Below are positions 3 to 63,421 of a stretch of 64,000 nt of DNA, piece by piece. This stretch comes from a virus. Every line of letters starts with the position of its first letter. Within the stretch, counting starts at the first letter, position 1. The translations under genes and the position numbers were made by a program. Below the pieces are notes generated by a model, which had not been told where the DNA came from, did no database searches, and was given only the letters and a program-made list of their open reading frames with translations. Where the stretch lies: positions 1 to 64,000 of IMG/VR virus record IMGVR_UViG_3300013307_000004. One strand, 5' to 3'.

Positions 3-197
3 CCCATTGCTTGCACAACCGCCTTGATACCCCTGGATTTACTGGCGAAATACAACAGGAAACGAAATGACAATCACTTGATCTGGTTACCCAAAGGACC
101 TTACTTCGTAGACGGCTATGGAATAGAGGTCTTTAACCGAATTCGACTCGAGAAACGAAAGGAATTGTATGAGCAACTTGTCACAGAAAACATCTGA
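3..197 (+). CDS. 3' end of an unrecognised gene (partial)
   Basis: An open frame enters from before the window and runs 64 codons to a TGA at 195-197. The peptide is charged and looks coding (KYNRKRNDNHLIWLPKG, then an R/K/E-rich helical end). It overlaps the start of the next gene by 29 bp, which is common in this phage. The family is not recognisable from this fragment. Confidence 0.5.
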   Translation, partial: PIACTTALIPLDLLAKYNRKRNDNHLIWLPKGPYFVDGYGIEVFNRIRLEKRKELYEQLVTENI

Positions 198-651
198 AGA
201 GATGCTGAAGGAATTCCATACTAAATATGGGCACATGATCAAAGACCGCCCTACGTTAGACATCCCCCAGGCGGTGAAGATACTTCGAGCGAAACTCATA
301 CTTGAAGAAGTAGAAGAAACTATCAGAGCAATGGGATTCAAAGTTTCTATATTTCTTGGAGAACATGATCCACATATGGAGAACCTCAGCGAAATTGCTG
401 ACGGTTTAGCTGACTCAAAATATGTAATAGTTGGAACAGCAATTACATACGGAATTCCCGAAGCAAGAGTTTTTCGTGAAGTCCATAATAGTAACATGAC
501 AAAGACACCGGCTCCCGTTTCCCCAGGCCAGAAATATGGAACGAAAACTCCTAAAGGCCCTGACTATGTAGCTCCAGATATTAGTGGAATTTTGGATGTT
601 CCAGAAGCTTTAACTGTATTAGAAATACGAGCGGGATATAAACCTAAATAG
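169..651 (+). CDS. MazG-like / phosphoribosyl-ATP pyrophosphohydrolase-like protein
   Basis: 160 aa. Likely an all-alpha NTP pyrophosphohydrolase that cleaves (d)NTPs or a related nucleotide to the monophosphate and PPi. The visible motifs are a metal-binding EEVEE helix near residues 46-50, a second helix with the pattern EIADGLADSKYVIVGTA (about 75-91), and an EVHNSNMTK stretch (104-112). All three are typical of phage MazG/PRA-PH proteins. The start has an AAAGGA ribosome site just upstream. A second MazG-like gene lies at 56781. The role could be cleaning the nucleotide pool or blunting a host alarmone response; which one is not visible from the sequence. Confidence 0.8.
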   Translation: MSNLSQKTSEEMLKEFHTKYGHMIKDRPTLDIPQAVKILRAKLILEEVEETIRAMGFKVSIFLGEHDPHMENLSEIADGLADSKYVIVGTAITYGIPEARVFREVHNSNMTKTPAPVSPGQKYGTKTPKGPDYVAPDISGILDVPEALTVLEIRAGYKPK

Positions 652-47455: not shown

Positions 47456-47974
47456 ATGCAAACGTTTCTTCCTGTTGTATCATTCGTGAAGTCGATGGAG
47501 TTTCTAGATTCCAAAAGACTCAGAAAACAACGGGTAGAGGCAGGTCAAATTCTAGAGATCTTGGAGAATAAACCGTTTCTCCCTTCTAATCTTCAGACTA
47601 TCGTTCCTTTTGATAGAACATTTTCTCATTGGCATCGCCATCCAGCCGTTCAGATGTGGTCGGGTCATGAAGAATGGCTCAAATTATATCTCGCGTGCGC
47701 GATAGGCGAGTGGTGTTCCAGAGGTTATCTTAACAATATTCCAGTCCCTTCGTATGATACAGAATCTCAAGAGCCTCCTGCTTGGCTCGGATGTGAAGAC
47801 TTCCACTATTCGCATCGCTGTAATTTAGTAAGAAAATTTCCGCAACATTATGGTCAGTTCTGGAAAGATGAGAATATAAACTTATCTGCTCCATATTTCT
47901 GGCCTACTCTGAACGGATTCATCAACAAATTAGAGGAGAAAAATGGCAACGACGGCGACACTCATTCGAGTTGA
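47456..47974 (+). CDS. MSMEG_6728-like / pyrimidine-dimer DNA glycosylase-like protein
   Basis: 172 aa. MQTFLPVVSFVKSMEFLDSKRLRKQRVEAGQIL, then HWHRHPAVQMWSGHEEWLKLYLACAIGEW, the pattern of the endonuclease V-like family (T4 DenV type) that excises UV-induced dimers. The N-terminal Met/Gln and HPAVQMW motif match the family. It could also be repurposed. ATG follows the regulator stop by two bases. Confidence 0.75.
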   Translation: MQTFLPVVSFVKSMEFLDSKRLRKQRVEAGQILEILENKPFLPSNLQTIVPFDRTFSHWHRHPAVQMWSGHEEWLKLYLACAIGEWCSRGYLNNIPVPSYDTESQEPPAWLGCEDFHYSHRCNLVRKFPQHYGQFWKDENINLSAPYFWPTLNGFINKLEEKNGNDGDTHSS

Positions 47975-52586: not shown

Positions 52587-54077
52587 ATGCTAGATAAATT
52601 CTCGAGTTTATTTCGTGGTTCTGCGCTAGCACATGGCACTTTTGATAGAACCACAGGAACCATGCATACCATTCTAACCCCAGCTTCTGAGGAGGACTAC
52701 CGAAAGCATCTAGCTGGGGACCTTGGTTTAGGTATAGTACCTGTTGATTCAGAAGGAAAATGCTATTGGGGCGCAATCGACATCGACATAGACACGATTG
52801 ATCACAAAGATCTTTACTCTCGTGTCTCAGCAAGAAATCTTCCACTAATGGTATGTCGTTCCAAAAGTGGTGGAGCTCATCTGTACGTATTCTTCAAAGA
52901 ACAGCAACCGAGTTCTATGGTCCAACAGTTACTTAAGAAGTGGGCTGGACTATTAGGATTCCCAAACAAAACGGAGATATTTCCAAAGCAACTAAAGAGT
53001 ACTCATCAGAATGTCGGTAATTGGCTCAATCTCCCGTATTTCAATGCGCAAAACACAGTGCGCTATGCCGTGTGCGAAACCGGCTCTATTGAAATTGAAG
53101 AGTTTCTTGCCAGAGTCCAGTACTACACAGGAAAAGAGAATATCGATGCAACACAAAACAGTGGACTCATTCAGATTGACCAAATGCCGCCGTGCTTACA
53201 GACTCTTACAGAAGAAGGACTTCCCCAGGGGGCCAGAAATGTCGGACTTTTTAGTTACGGAGTGTTCTACCGGAAGTCTAGTCCCAATGGATGGGAGGAC
53301 AAGCTTCGGTATCATAATCAGAATTATGTTTCGCCTTCTCTGGGGTCTCGTGAAGTCGAGGCACTTATTAAGTCGCTTAGTGCGAGACAGTACCAGTACA
53401 AGTGCGATGAAGAGCCACTTTGCTCTCATTGTGATAGGAAGTCATGTCTCCAGTTGCCATATGGAGTTGGACACAAACCGTGGGAAGATGAGAGTAACTT
53501 CGATGAAATTACGGTAGGTAGTCTTCGAAAGATTCTCAGCGATCCACCAACATACATCTTGGAGGTAAATGGAAGAGACTTATCACTTTCATCTGATGAA
53601 TTTCGAGTGTTCGAGAAATTAAGACGAAGAATATTCGAAGTCATGGATCTAGTGATACGGCCAATTAAGCAACCTCAATGGGAACAGAAGGTAAAAGGTC
53701 TATTATCTCAGAAAACTGATATTGAGGCTCCAGAGGATGCATCTCAGTATGGTTCAGTGATCAATAGAATCGATGACTTTCTGGCTCTTAGTGATAGGTC
53801 TAAGGGTAGAGATGATTTACTCCGAGGATTGCCTATTATTGAGAAAGAACTTATTCTCTTTCAGGTTGATTACCTTCAGAAGTATCTGCAAGGTCAGAAA
53901 ACGATCATCAGTAATCATGAACTATTCTCAATCTTGCATCGAAGAAATTGCGCTTATGCTCTGATCAAAATTAAGGGTAAGGTTATTAGGGCATGGTCAA
54001 TTCCTTCTATTCAAGTTAACCGTCAGACCGAAGATTATTCAGAAGCAGAATTTGAAAAGGAAGAACCAGAGATATGA
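52587..54077 (+). CDS. Archaeo-eukaryotic primase (TOTE-type AEP domain)
   Basis: 496 aa. WGAIDIDIDT (61-70) provides the catalytic aspartates and SKSGGAHLYVFF (92-103) the second block of an AEP polymerase/primase; GNWLNLPYF follows. A Cys cluster (CSHCDRKSC, about 282-290) may be a zinc knuckle, and the rest is helical. It would make primers for replication, filling the DnaG slot. No DnaB-like helicase is seen in the window. Confidence 0.8.
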   Translation: MLDKFSSLFRGSALAHGTFDRTTGTMHTILTPASEEDYRKHLAGDLGLGIVPVDSEGKCYWGAIDIDIDTIDHKDLYSRVSARNLPLMVCRSKSGGAHLYVFFKEQQPSSMVQQLLKKWAGLLGFPNKTEIFPKQLKSTHQNVGNWLNLPYFNAQNTVRYAVCETGSIEIEEFLARVQYYTGKENIDATQNSGLIQIDQMPPCLQTLTEEGLPQGARNVGLFSYGVFYRKSSPNGWEDKLRYHNQNYVSPSLGSREVEALIKSLSARQYQYKCDEEPLCSHCDRKSCLQLPYGVGHKPWEDESNFDEITVGSLRKILSDPPTYILEVNGRDLSLSSDEFRVFEKLRRRIFEVMDLVIRPIKQPQWEQKVKGLLSQKTDIEAPEDASQYGSVINRIDDFLALSDRSKGRDDLLRGLPIIEKELILFQVDYLQKYLQGQKTIISNHELFSILHRRNCAYALIKIKGKVIRAWSIPSIQVNRQTEDYSEAEFEKEEPEI

Positions 54078-54750: not shown

Positions 54751-55003
54751 CAGAAGAAGTTTTCTTAATCATGAAGAAGTAAATCATCCATCTCACTATG
54801 GAGGAGATACTCTTTATGAAACTATTAAAGTACTTGAGAATCGAATGACTCCTCAAGAGTTTATTGGATTCTTGAAAGGAAACGTTTACAAGTACAATGA
54901 TCGCGCAAAGTCAAAAGGATCTGAACTTAATAACTATGAGAAAGCTCAATTCTATCAGAACTATCTCGTAGATTTCATGCGTCGAAAGGGAATGACGAAA
55001 TGA
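54653..55003 (+). CDS. DUF3310 protein
   Basis: 116 aa from the ATG at 54653 (GAGG upstream; overlaps the previous gene by 98 bp) or from 54713. The DUF3310 core is HPSHYGGDTLYETIKVLENR then FLKGNVYKYNDRAKSKGSELNNYEKAQFYQ, a family tied to nucleotide kinase-like proteins of T7-type phages. Function not settled. Confidence 0.75.
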   Translation: MKESRNSRKKTQVPERPTKVMTEVPLVPSSSTDRRSFLNHEEVNHPSHYGGDTLYETIKVLENRMTPQEFIGFLKGNVYKYNDRAKSKGSELNNYEKAQFYQNYLVDFMRRKGMTK

Positions 55004-55743
55004 AGATTGTTGCCCCTTATGCCAGGATTTTAAGTCCCAAGACTATCCTCAGTAAACTCCAGCTTATAGAATATGCTGGAAGAATCTCTCACCGTTCAGA
55101 AGAAGAAATGAAAGAGGATACCTGGGGAAAGTTCATCACAGCTGTTGTGTTGAAACATGGAGACTGGTCTATTACAGAACATGTAACGATCAGTGTTGAA
55201 GTTCTTACAGATCGTGGTGTTACTCATGAAATTGTAAGACACAGAATCGCAGCATATACTCAGGAGTCTACGCGATTCGTGAACTATGCGAAAAAGATGC
55301 CACCAGCTTTTCTGTATCCGAAACCAGACGTAAAGTGTGCTCTATGCTTAGCTGGTGATGAGGCTGAACTTAATGGAAGTCCATCTGATGGGTATAGTTT
55401 TCATCATCACGATGATGATGCTTCAGATTGTGCTTATGATACTGAGTGGATGTTTGCTATTCATGAAGCAGAACGTCATTATAGACTTCTCTTGGAAAAG
55501 GGATGGCGTCCACAAGAAGCACGGAGTGTATTTCCAAATGCTCTTGCTTCGAAGATTGTCTGTACTTATAATCTTCGTACGTGGAGGCATCTCTTCAGAA
55601 TGCGGACGACAAAAGAAACACACCCGCAATTCAAAGAGTGGTCCGTTCCTTTGTTAGCTGAGTTTAAGAAGTTAATTCCTCTTCTGTACGACGATATTGA
55701 GCCAGATGCTCGACAGGTAGATAACTTGAGACTGCCATGCTGA
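55000..55743 (+). CDS. thyX: Flavin-dependent thymidylate synthase
   Basis: 247 aa. The ThyX signature RHRX7S is present: RHRIAAYTQESTR (80-92). Later LRTWRHLFRMRT and HPQFKEWS fit the family. It methylates dUMP to dTMP using methylene-THF, NADPH and FAD. A 40-residue Cys/Asp/His insert (about 107-147, KCALCLAGD...HHHDDDASD) is unusual. A ThyA-family enzyme also occurs at 62119. Confidence 0.9.
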   Translation: MKIVAPYARILSPKTILSKLQLIEYAGRISHRSEEEMKEDTWGKFITAVVLKHGDWSITEHVTISVEVLTDRGVTHEIVRHRIAAYTQESTRFVNYAKKMPPAFLYPKPDVKCALCLAGDEAELNGSPSDGYSFHHHDDDASDCAYDTEWMFAIHEAERHYRLLLEKGWRPQEARSVFPNALASKIVCTYNLRTWRHLFRMRTTKETHPQFKEWSVPLLAEFKKLIPLLYDDIEPDARQVDNLRLPC

Positions 55744-56399
55744 AAGAGTTCTCAATTCATCCTCAACTGAACATAGCCTATAGAGAAGGAACTTTCGATG
55801 AGTGGATACTTAATGAAACGAAAAGTTATTTTCCTCTTGGGCTTACTGACAATGATCGTGTGCTGGATCTTGGTGGTCACATCGGCTGCTTTGCTTCTCG
55901 CGCACTATTGGAAAAACCCGGAATACTTCTCTGGTCTTTTGAAGCCGAGAAATCTAACTTCGAAGTACTCGAACTTAATGCCAACTACTTTAAGTTTGGA
56001 GCATTCTACAGGGCGGTAGTTCCAGATGAACTTGAAGGACACGACATTAAGATTTATGTCAACGACAAAACGAATAATGCTCTTCATTCTACGATACCTA
56101 CTCGTGGAAGATCAGAGCAGGTGGTAAAAGGGATTTCTTTAGGAAGTATTCTTAAGGATCTCAAACCGACAATCATCAAGTGTGACATTGAAGGATCAGA
56201 GTATCATCTGCCTTGGAAGTTAAATCCAGAAGTTCGTTATGTAGTAATGGAACTTCACTTAACTAAACCAGGACATCGGGGACTAGCTAAAACCACTCTT
56301 GATATTTTTTCAGATAATGGTTTTGAATTAGTTAATACTCCTCGAATTGGTGAAAAGAATTGGACTACCATTGCAAAGTGGAGGAGAAATGGACAGTAA
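55737..56399 (+). CDS. FkbM-family methyltransferase
   Basis: 220 aa. Rossmann SAM-binding motif VLDLGGHIGCFAS (42-54), acidic second strand SFEAEKSN, and the FkbM-type KCDIEGSEYHL (about 148-158). Transfers methyl groups to small molecules or sugars in other systems; substrate here unknown. Sits beside ThyX and the deoxyribosyltransferase-like gene, so it may act on a nucleotide or DNA base. Could also be host-surface sugar methylation. Confidence 0.75.
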   Translation: MLKEFSIHPQLNIAYREGTFDEWILNETKSYFPLGLTDNDRVLDLGGHIGCFASRALLEKPGILLWSFEAEKSNFEVLELNANYFKFGAFYRAVVPDELEGHDIKIYVNDKTNNALHSTIPTRGRSEQVVKGISLGSILKDLKPTIIKCDIEGSEYHLPWKLNPEVRYVVMELHLTKPGHRGLAKTTLDIFSDNGFELVNTPRIGEKNWTTIAKWRRNGQ

Positions 56400-60858: not shown

Positions 60859-61209
60859 ATGGACTCTGATCTGAAGTCAATACTCCCAGAAATACATATT
60901 AGACCATTTCCTAGCAGACAGATTACGTATTCTGGGGAACTTGGCAATTTTTCCAGAGCGTACACCAATTGCCCTAAGTGTGGCAATACCGGGGATCTGT
61001 ACGCAGGAAAGAACTTTGATATGAGGTACTGTCCTGGAAATATGCCAGTAGAGCACATTTGCAGAGACATGTTAAATCGAGAGCATACTCATCCGAACAA
61101 CTGTGCTGGCGTTTCTGTAGAACATCATCATGTGTTCTGTAAAGTTTGTGAGTTCATTTTCTTCTTTAATCTCCCAGATCTTTCAGAGGACAAACCATGG
61201 CAAAAGTGA
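60859..61209 (+). CDS. Zinc-ribbon-containing hypothetical protein
   Basis: 116 aa. CPKCGNTGDL (about 38) and several later Cys/His (CPGN...HICRDM...HPNNCAGVSVEHHH) suggest two zinc sites. Overlaps the kinase gene. Unknown. Confidence 0.55.
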   Translation: MDSDLKSILPEIHIRPFPSRQITYSGELGNFSRAYTNCPKCGNTGDLYAGKNFDMRYCPGNMPVEHICRDMLNREHTHPNNCAGVSVEHHHVFCKVCEFIFFFNLPDLSEDKPWQK

Positions 61210-62138
61210 TAGTTCTCGAAGGCCCTGATGGAAGTGGAAAAACAACCTTAGCCAGGAAACTTGAATCAATGGGGTGGGAATATCATCATGAAGGTCCTCC
61301 CGAGCGTGGCATCAATGTTGTTGAGCATTATCTGCGGATCATTGATTCTTCTCTTAAAAGTCCTAGAAACATTGTTCATGATAGACTTTTCGCAGGAGAA
61401 ACTGTCTATGGTCCTATTCACAGAAACTATGACGCTATTGGCGGATGGGAAGGATTAAGACTCTTCAAGAGACTAACTACTAGTCGACCCATCTTCCAGT
61501 TTCTGTGCATGCCAAAACAGAAGATACTTGAGGATAATCTTCGAAGTAATCCAGAAGATTTGGAACGTTACGGTCTAGAGAAATTCCGCAAAATTTGTGA
61601 CAGATACTGGGAACTAGATCATGTGATGAACTGGCGAATCTTTGATTACACGAAACACCACGCAGAATACGTAGCACACGTAACAAATCAAGAGTACAGA
61701 TTTCTTCCAGAGGGAACTATCGGCTCTCCTGTCGCAAAGTACCTATTCATTGGAGACCAGCCAAATCATGACTCAGTCGATGTCCCGTTCTTTGCTCTTA
61801 ATGGTTCGAGTGGCTACCTTAACACTGCTATTACTATCTGCAAATTCGCCGAAGATGATCTTGCTTTTAGTAATGCTTTTGGCCCTCGCGGTAACGTTAC
61901 TCATTCTCTTGAAGAAATAATCTGGAGTTTTCCAGAGATGAAACACATGTTTCTTATGGGAGGACCGGCTAAATCATGGTTCGATCAACAAATGGGACGG
62001 TTCTCTTTACCAAAAGGAACTAGATTCCATGTTCACAAAATTCAGCATCCGTCGTATCTCAAAAGATTTAAGGGTAGTAATCCAGAGTTTCTAGCCGACA
62101 TAATCAAAGGAGTTCTTGATGGCAAAGCTAATCAGTGA
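61197..62138 (+). CDS. dNMP-kinase-like P-loop domain fused to a UDG-like domain
   Basis: 313 aa. Residues 1-165: P-loop GPDGSGKTT (9-17) and HDRLFAGETVY, as in thymidylate/dNMP kinases. Residues about 180-313: uracil-DNA-glycosylase-like fold with YLFIGDQPN (182-190), PFFALNGSSGYLN (197-209), FSNAFGP (224-230) and HPSYLKRF (284-291). The two halves would phosphorylate a deoxynucleotide and bind or excise a base. Located before the hydroxymethylase-like gene. Confidence 0.8.
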   Translation: MAKVIVLEGPDGSGKTTLARKLESMGWEYHHEGPPERGINVVEHYLRIIDSSLKSPRNIVHDRLFAGETVYGPIHRNYDAIGGWEGLRLFKRLTTSRPIFQFLCMPKQKILEDNLRSNPEDLERYGLEKFRKICDRYWELDHVMNWRIFDYTKHHAEYVAHVTNQEYRFLPEGTIGSPVAKYLFIGDQPNHDSVDVPFFALNGSSGYLNTAITICKFAEDDLAFSNAFGPRGNVTHSLEEIIWSFPEMKHMFLMGGPAKSWFDQQMGRFSLPKGTRFHVHKIQHPSYLKRFKGSNPEFLADIIKGVLDGKANQ

Positions 62139-62997
62139 TCTTGGAATTACAAAAGTGTGGGTCAAGCTTCTTGGGACATTGCTTGATGAAGGAGCGATTT
62201 CTTCTCCTCGCGATCAGAAAACGAAAGAAATTCTTAACATGACTGTTGAAGTTAGATGGGGACTAGAAAATGTTATTGTTTCTCCAGTTCGAGATCTTAA
62301 CTACAAGTTCATGGTAGCTGAGTGGTTGTGGATCATGGCTGGACTTAATGGCGTGGATATTCTTGCAAAGTATAATAGCGTGATGAGAAATTTCTCTGAT
62401 GACGGTCATATTCTGTCTGGAGCTTATGGGCCGAGATTGATGCCTCAGATGGATTACGTTATCGAGAATCTTAAGAAACAAGATTCACGTCAAGCTGTTG
62501 CTACTATCTGGACTCCTAATCCACAGAATTCGAAGGACATTCCATGTACTATTTCAGTTCAGTGGCTAATCAGACCTAACATAGCCGGCTCTAATAGATT
62601 GAACTGCATTGTGAATATGAGAAGTTCAGATGCTTGGCTTGGTCTTCCATACGACTATTACACTTTCAGTCAGATTACAAATTGGCTTGGGTTAAAAGTA
62701 GGATGTCCTGTAGGTTCAGTAACCTTTAATCTAGGTTCTAGTCATCTTTATGAAAGAGATTGGGCAGGAGCTCTTAAAGTCATGGAGGATGAAAAACTTA
62801 ATACAGTGGGATCACCAGACTTCTTTGATAGTGAGTTTCTTCCAATTAAAAAAGAAGACTTTCAAAACATGCTCCACATTCCAGAGAAAATGGCTAACGA
62901 AGGTCCAGAACCTTGGATTGAATATGCAGAAATCTTAGCTTCGCCCAGATCTCACTCTTTGGAGGTGTTACGTGGTCTCACGGGTCAGCAAATCTGA
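62119..62997 (+). CDS. ThyA-family enzyme, dCMP hydroxymethylase-like
   Basis: 292 aa from the ATG at 62119 (AAAGGAG six bases upstream). Conserved ThyA-fold features: VAEWLWIMAG (Glu), PCTISVQWLIR (catalytic Cys), MRSSD (Arg/Asp), SSHLYERD (His-x-Tyr). At the base-recognising position it reads GLPYD, where thymidylate synthases read GLPFN. Asp there is the hallmark of dCMP-acting enzymes such as T4 gp42. So it probably makes 5-hydroxymethyl-dCMP (or methyl-dCMP). Confidence 0.75.
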   Translation: MAKLISDLGITKVWVKLLGTLLDEGAISSPRDQKTKEILNMTVEVRWGLENVIVSPVRDLNYKFMVAEWLWIMAGLNGVDILAKYNSVMRNFSDDGHILSGAYGPRLMPQMDYVIENLKKQDSRQAVATIWTPNPQNSKDIPCTISVQWLIRPNIAGSNRLNCIVNMRSSDAWLGLPYDYYTFSQITNWLGLKVGCPVGSVTFNLGSSHLYERDWAGALKVMEDEKLNTVGSPDFFDSEFLPIKKEDFQNMLHIPEKMANEGPEPWIEYAEILASPRSHSLEVLRGLTGQQI

Positions 62998-63421
62998 GTA
63001 TTTTCTTCAAATCTTGGATCTAGTAGCTAGCAGAAGTACGTGTAAAAGGAGGGCAGTCGGTGCGATCATCACAGATGAAGAAGGACACATTCTCTCTACA
63101 GGATATAACGGCGTTCCACGTGGCTTTGATCATTGTATTGACGTTCCTTGCAGTGGTGCTGGCGATAGACCCGGAGATTCGTCAAACTGTATGGCAGTTC
63201 ATGCTGAAACAAATGCACTTCTCCAATGCTCGGACTTAGAAAGAGCCAGGATTCTTTACTCAACCTGCGTTCCTTGCTTTGGATGTGCGAAGAGTATCGC
63301 AAACACTAAGATCAAAACAGTTATTGCGAAACAGACTTATGCGGATACTCGAGGCATGGATGTTCTTTTAGAAGCCGGCATAGTAGTTGAAGTTAATGGG
63401 GAGGTATATGGCAGGGACTAG
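62972..63421 (+). CDS. dCMP deaminase
   Basis: 149 aa, GTG start (GGAGGT upstream). Zinc site: VHAETNALL and CVPCFGC; second Cys-rich segment CIDVPCSGAGDRPGDSSNC, also seen in phage dCMP deaminases. Makes dUMP from dCMP, feeding ThyX. Competes with the neighbouring hydroxymethylase-like enzyme for dCMP. Overlaps both neighbours. Confidence 0.88.
   Translation: MVSRVSKSEYFLQILDLVASRSTCKRRAVGAIITDEEGHILSTGYNGVPRGFDHCIDVPCSGAGDRPGDSSNCMAVHAETNALLQCSDLERARILYSTCVPCFGCAKSIANTKIKTVIAKQTYADTRGMDVLLEAGIVVEVNGEVYGRD

Follow-up and report, generated by a model that had tools for sequence, protein, structure and literature searches.

Phages that replace cytosine must limit the build-up of U and hmU, because hmC deaminates to hmU. 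Family-4 UDGs are thought to be helped in gripping DNA by their Fe-S cysteines, their CRPPxNR loop and the length of the stretches between their motifs. SPO1, an hmU phage, as well as M6 and Det7, encode enzymes that make hmdU-type precursors. In the UDG of S. tokodaii, an Asn reads uracil and a Phe is the stacking residue (PMC11078745), and in the glycosylases Brig1 and Brig3 the base reader has to be acidic, E147 for alpha-glucosyl-hmC and D127 for hmC, respectively (PMC11078745, PMC13160076). Here, we show that the window, i.e., the whole 64,000-nucleotide stretch analysed (positions 1 to 64,000 of the 67,780-base virus record IMGVR_UViG_3300013307_000004), encodes a kinase fused to a UDG-like domain, and we document the folds of both halves, the conservation of the pocket, the gene order and the dCMP-type signature of the partner enzyme.

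A kinase fused to a UDG domain

The fusion gene (61197-62138) is a single unbroken ORF that encodes 313 amino acids from an ATG start; it shares 13 bases with the ORF before it and 20 with the downstream ThyA-like ORF. The product consists of a P-loop kinase of the thymidylate-kinase fold followed by a compact family-4-like UDG domain, and AlphaFold2, supplied with the window sequence and its viral-contig relatives, models the whole protein with pLDDT 96.2 and pTM 0.92. Over its first 156 residues, the protein hits phrog_761 ('thymidylate kinase', E 5.6e-15), and the closest structure to the kinase half is phage YorR (3kb2; Z 18.1 over 160 residues). The TMK fold, with the P-loop and the Asp-Arg motif, is present in this half, where G9, K15, D62, R63 and Y71 are invariant and E68 and R76 nearly so among 80 representatives.

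Table 1. Features of the fusion gene and of related genes in the window
Feature	Position	Strand	Evidence
N-terminal YorR-like P-loop kinase domain, residues 1-168	61197..61700	+	phrog_761, structure match, conservation
P-loop GPDGSGKT of the kinase half, residues 9-16	61221-61244	+	sequence motif
C-terminal family-4-like UDG-superfamily domain, residues 169-313	61701..62135	+	profile vs PDB, Pfam, Foldseek/VIA
UDG motif 1, G186-D187-Q-P-N190 (TTUDGA G40-E41 position)	61752..61766	+	alignment, conservation
F198, base-stacking aromatic (TTUDGA F54 position)	61788..61790	+	alignment
N226, Watson-Crick-face reader (TTUDGA N80 position)	61872..61874	+	alignment, conservation
UDG motif 2, H284-P-S-Y-L-K-R-F291	62046..62069	+	alignment, conservation
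ThyA-superfamily dCMP-type (hydroxy)methylase	62119..62997	+	Pfam Thymidylat_synt E 3e-21; residue analysis
dCMP deaminase	62972..63421	+	Pfam E 5e-19; phrog_174 E 2.5e-42
ThyX flavin-dependent thymidylate synthase, separate dTMP source	55000..55743	+	Pfam Thy1 E 1e-37
MazG/PRA-PH-type nucleotide pyrophosphohydrolase, candidate dCTPase	169..651	+	phrog_671 E 8e-24

The whole protein gives no Pfam UDG match, and a structure search with it listed kinase matches only, so that the UDG half was predicted and searched separately. Modelled alone (pLDDT 95.5, pTM 0.90), this half places UDGs at the top ranks, its best solved matches being family-4 UDGs and UdgX (4zbx; Z 13.3, rmsd 3.7 over 139 residues). 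Scanned alone, it matches the Pfam UDG family (PF03167) at E 4e-4 and 20.8 bits, under the curated cut-off of 24.3; the same model matches 41 of 73 related C-halves at E 0.1, and a profile of these 73 retrieves from the PDB the Thermus family-4 UDG TTUDGA (1ui0) at E 1e-10 and UdgX at about 2e-7. The family-4 model TIGR00758 does not match the window protein and gives the phage G protein 35.3 bits against a cut-off of 125.3, and a PF03167 search of the virus record for a second UDG returned no match, also missing the fused domain itself. Thus, the kinase-like and UDG-like folds that the sequence-only reading had placed in one protein are both confirmed, by phrog_761, the profile, AlphaFold2 and the two structure matches, the one to UDG being clear, and the profile, Pfam and fold results rule out chance motif matches as the source of the call. 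A defence-gene reading was also rejected, the PADLOC matches in the window protein spanning only the P-loop.

The fusion is widespread and conserved among phages and viral contigs. Scans of viral contigs yielded, over all the records collected, 137 full-length copies (80 representatives at 80% identity), and the neighbourhood was counted over 133 fusion loci, some of whose contigs are near-copies of one another. These loci include the named phages AXL_3, PW916, DSL-LC01 and G; ctUtU524 is a fifth named record. Because the same fusion recurs across these viral-contig and phage loci, it is not an assembly artefact. The kinase-UDG architecture is near certain. One scan of genome contigs for a cellular origin gave, among the matches listed, only short P-loop matches. 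Given that gp315 of Bacillus phage G aligns from end to end with phrog_761 (E 3e-67) and, in its C-half, with Pfam UDG (E 1.5e-12, 48.2 bits), the public family PHROG 761, judged by these sequence matches, already includes the fusion architecture, under the label 'thymidylate kinase' only. As had been suspected from the sequence, the combination appears not to have been described: we found no published account in the open-access literature, which was searched partly under the unhyphenated spelling.

Trees of the kinase and UDG halves correlate in path length at 0.68, which suggests that, to a fair extent, both halves have a common history. On the kinase-half tree, parsimony calls for no fewer than 10 changes in UDG presence, three of them forced by well-supported branches. 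Several lineages without the UDG half still carry the kinase and the dCMP-type enzyme, among them the contigs L025 and L026, which fall close to the window, and in the loci examined the kinase-only relatives have no UDG on a separate ORF. The ratio of fusions to kinase-only relatives is meaningless, recovery being biased by the queries.

The UDG pocket and the reduced DNA-gripping elements

In the profile alignment of the 73 C-halves, D187, F198, N226 and H284 align with E41, F54, N80 and H155 of TTUDGA, and we take their roles to be those assigned to the corresponding positions in the UDG literature. All four family-4 pocket residues are intact in 69 of the 80 representatives, so that loss of both active-site sets, which would have spoken against the sequence-only reading, is not the rule among homologues. 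Weighted conservation over the same representatives is 92% for D/E187, 90% for P197, 89% for F198 and 95% for N226, G255 and A258, followed toward the C terminus by H284 (90%), P285 (100%), R290 (90%) and F291 (85%). Some members have incomplete pockets, e.g., phage G, with no aligned F198. One clade of fusions (L074, L085, L086 and L088) has degenerate UDG motifs (CDKGP ... PPLYHMQN or similar) next to an unchanged dCMP-type neighbour. Because some lineages lost the UDG half and some pockets are broken, this half is accessory.

Several family-4 elements are missing. The 4Fe-4S cysteines are absent, with fewer than four Cys in 75 of the 80 UDG halves and no conserved Cys column, and there is no CRPPxNR loop. 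The fused domain is also shorter between motifs than family 4 (median 26 vs 41 residues from N to G and 22 vs 34 from G to H) and near neutral in charge (median pI 7.6). The shortened loops and absent Fe-S cysteines, together with the pocket residues missing in some members, would fit a UDG half that has ceased to cut and instead serves as a DNA- or nucleotide-binding module, either anchoring the kinase at the replication machinery or tuning it. A related domain is fused to the DNA polymerases of phages SPO1 and phiLo, the SPO1 copy being without equivalents of F54 and N80, and vaccinia UDG (D4), as a processivity factor, offers a precedent (PMC10253040). However, such a module needs no set of acid, aromatic, Asn and His, yet 69 of the 80 diverse members retain all four, and we consider this reading, as a tether or a sensor, possible but doubtful.

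Because the fusion retains an Asn reader and the readers of Brig1 and Brig3 are acidic, recognition of U-type rather than C-type bases is predicted; by analogy across families, the fused UDG should ignore the phage's own modified C and act on U-type bases. A Brig-like, cytosine-reading glycosylase is disfavoured on the same ground.

The dCMP-type partner enzyme and its predicted pathway

The fusion gene had been placed directly before a hydroxymethylase-like gene; the position stands, and the partner can be refined to a dCMP-type, not a dUMP-type, enzyme. The gene order kinase-UDG, ThyA-like enzyme and dCMP deaminase is conserved, with the ThyA-like gene immediately downstream of the fusion in 126 of the 133 loci; 109 of these loci contain a dCMP deaminase gene and 112 a family-A polymerase. 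In AXL_3 and PW916, the fusion is immediately preceded by a MazG-type homologue. Among solved structures, the ThyA-like protein is closest to a CMP 5-hydroxymethylase. At the position of the T4 gp42 Asp, the window protein and every fusion neighbour readable there have Asp, as against Asn in SPO1, M6, Det7 and RB16 TS, and the residue after the catalytic Cys is Thr in the fusion neighbours and T4, Asn in the hmdU types and His in TS. Given the Asp shared with T4 dCMP hydroxymethylase, the pathway is predicted to modify cytosine, and the same signature rules out an hmdU pathway. Of 37 restriction enzymes, 35 fail to cut AXL_3 DNA, and the two that do cut it recognise sites composed solely of A/T (PMC7504290), the pattern expected for modified C or G. 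Together, the Asp/Thr signature, the solved relative, the AXL_3 resistance, ThyX and the MazG-type enzyme point to a T4-like cytosine-replacement pathway, adding hydroxymethyl or methyl.

Two annotations in relatives are probably wrong, the AXL_3 'thymidylate synthase' (L007:12938-13747) and the PW916 'deoxyuridylate hydroxymethyltransferase' (L008:3280-4098), both of which have the dCMP-type Asp. A 332-residue protein encoded at L159:5209-6204 (positions 66208-67203 of the record), with no Pfam match and a weak match to phrog_14998, is a possible modified-base glycosyltransferase; the annotated DSL-LC01 glycosyltransferase also matches phrog_14998 (E 2e-12). Elsewhere, the window encodes a DenV-like pyrimidine-dimer DNA glycosylase (47456-47974; Pfam Pyr_excise, E 3e-17), a TOTE-type archaeo-eukaryotic primase (52587-54077) and an FkbM-type methyltransferase (55737-56399) that overlaps the end of ThyX.

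The thymidylate-kinase fold and annotation, along with the ThyX encoded by the window phage, would suit a plain thymidylate kinase acting on dTMP, with a passenger UDG that serves uracil repair in general; the modified base would then play no part. This is improbable: the coupling is strictly to a dCMP-type, not a TS-type, ThyA homologue, and the kinase scores 26.3 bits against the dTMP kinase equivalog TIGR00041, below the cut-off of 83.25.

The neighbouring deaminase suggests another role for the UDG half, namely, editing of the nucleotide pool in cis by hydrolysing dUMP and hmdUMP, the products of dCMP deaminase on dCMP and hmdCMP, before the kinase charges them. The frequency of the deaminase gene among the fusion loci, a fusion partner that acts on dNMPs, the reduced DNA-binding elements and the existence of a UdgX crystal structure with dUMP all speak for this reading, which we nevertheless judge unlikely: UDG-less relatives of the window still have the deaminase, and, to our knowledge, known UDGs work on DNA, not free dUMP, and the superfamily offers no precedent for pool editing. 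Put as a mechanism, the protein would be a self-editing kinase that charges hmdCMP and destroys the deaminated form through a UDG-fold N-glycosidase for free dUMP or hmdUMP; this, too, seems unlikely, but would, if true, make the protein the first member of the UDG superfamily known to us to act on the nucleotide pool.

Proposed function and known systems

The likeliest single reading, which we advance tentatively, is that the protein combines an hmdCMP kinase with a U/hmU glycosylase acting on DNA. The ThyA-like enzyme would convert dCMP to 5-hydroxymethyl-dCMP (or 5-methyl-dCMP), and the N-terminal kinase would phosphorylate the modified dCMP en route to the triphosphate, as does T4 gene 1. 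The family-4-like UDG half would be a working N-glycosylase for uracil-type bases, removing, most likely from new phage DNA, U or 5-hydroxymethyl-U, the bases that result when C and hmC are deaminated. We infer the kinase substrate, catalysis, base specificity and action on DNA from the intact pocket in most representatives, the Asn reader, the coupling to the ThyA-like gene and its Asp signature, and also from the AXL_3 resistance, the CMP 5-hydroxymethylase relative and the correlated half trees. Against the glycosylase proposal count the loss of the Fe-S cysteines and CRPPxNR loop, the shorter motif spacing and the near-neutral charge, as well as the UDG-less lineages with kinase and dCMP-type enzyme and the incomplete pockets, including that of phage G; moreover, there is no obvious reason to join DNA repair to a dNMP kinase.

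The fusion may help phages with modified DNA to exclude uracil-type bases. Standing beside a dCMP-modifying enzyme, it is a candidate for how such phages limit U and hmU and could be the phage-side equivalent of the Brig glycosylases of the host. It also flags gene clusters that likely specify cytosine-modified genomes and are at present annotated as plain thymidylate synthesis.

The UDG half resembles the family-4 UDGs (TTUDGA and S. tokodaii UDG) and UdgX in fold, motif order, the acid/F/N/H pocket and the HPxYxxR loop, but it lies behind a kinase, is without the Fe-S cysteines and the CRPPxNR loop, has a shorter second half and scores under the curated family cut-offs. The kinase half shares its fold and a recognisable sequence kinship with the phrog_761-type YorR of Bacillus phage SPbeta, which, unlike the fusion, is free-standing, with no UDG half. 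In predicted role only, the locus is like T4 gene 1 and gene 42, charging hmdCMP supplied by a dCMP-type ThyA homologue, whereas T4 has no UDG fusion in its hmdCMP pathway. Brig1 and Brig3 are likewise UDG-superfamily proteins tied to hmC biology; they, however, are host antiphage defences with acidic C-type readers, whereas the fusion belongs to phages and keeps Asn at the reader position. Finally, in the SPO1 and phiLo DNA polymerases, as in the fusion, a phage replication-related enzyme is joined to a family-4-like UDG domain, which in SPO1 is N-terminal (L012:5962-6480), with M and S in place of F54 and N80, and in phiLo (9qhs) is comparable; the partner there is a polymerase, not a kinase, and the SPO1 pocket is degenerate.
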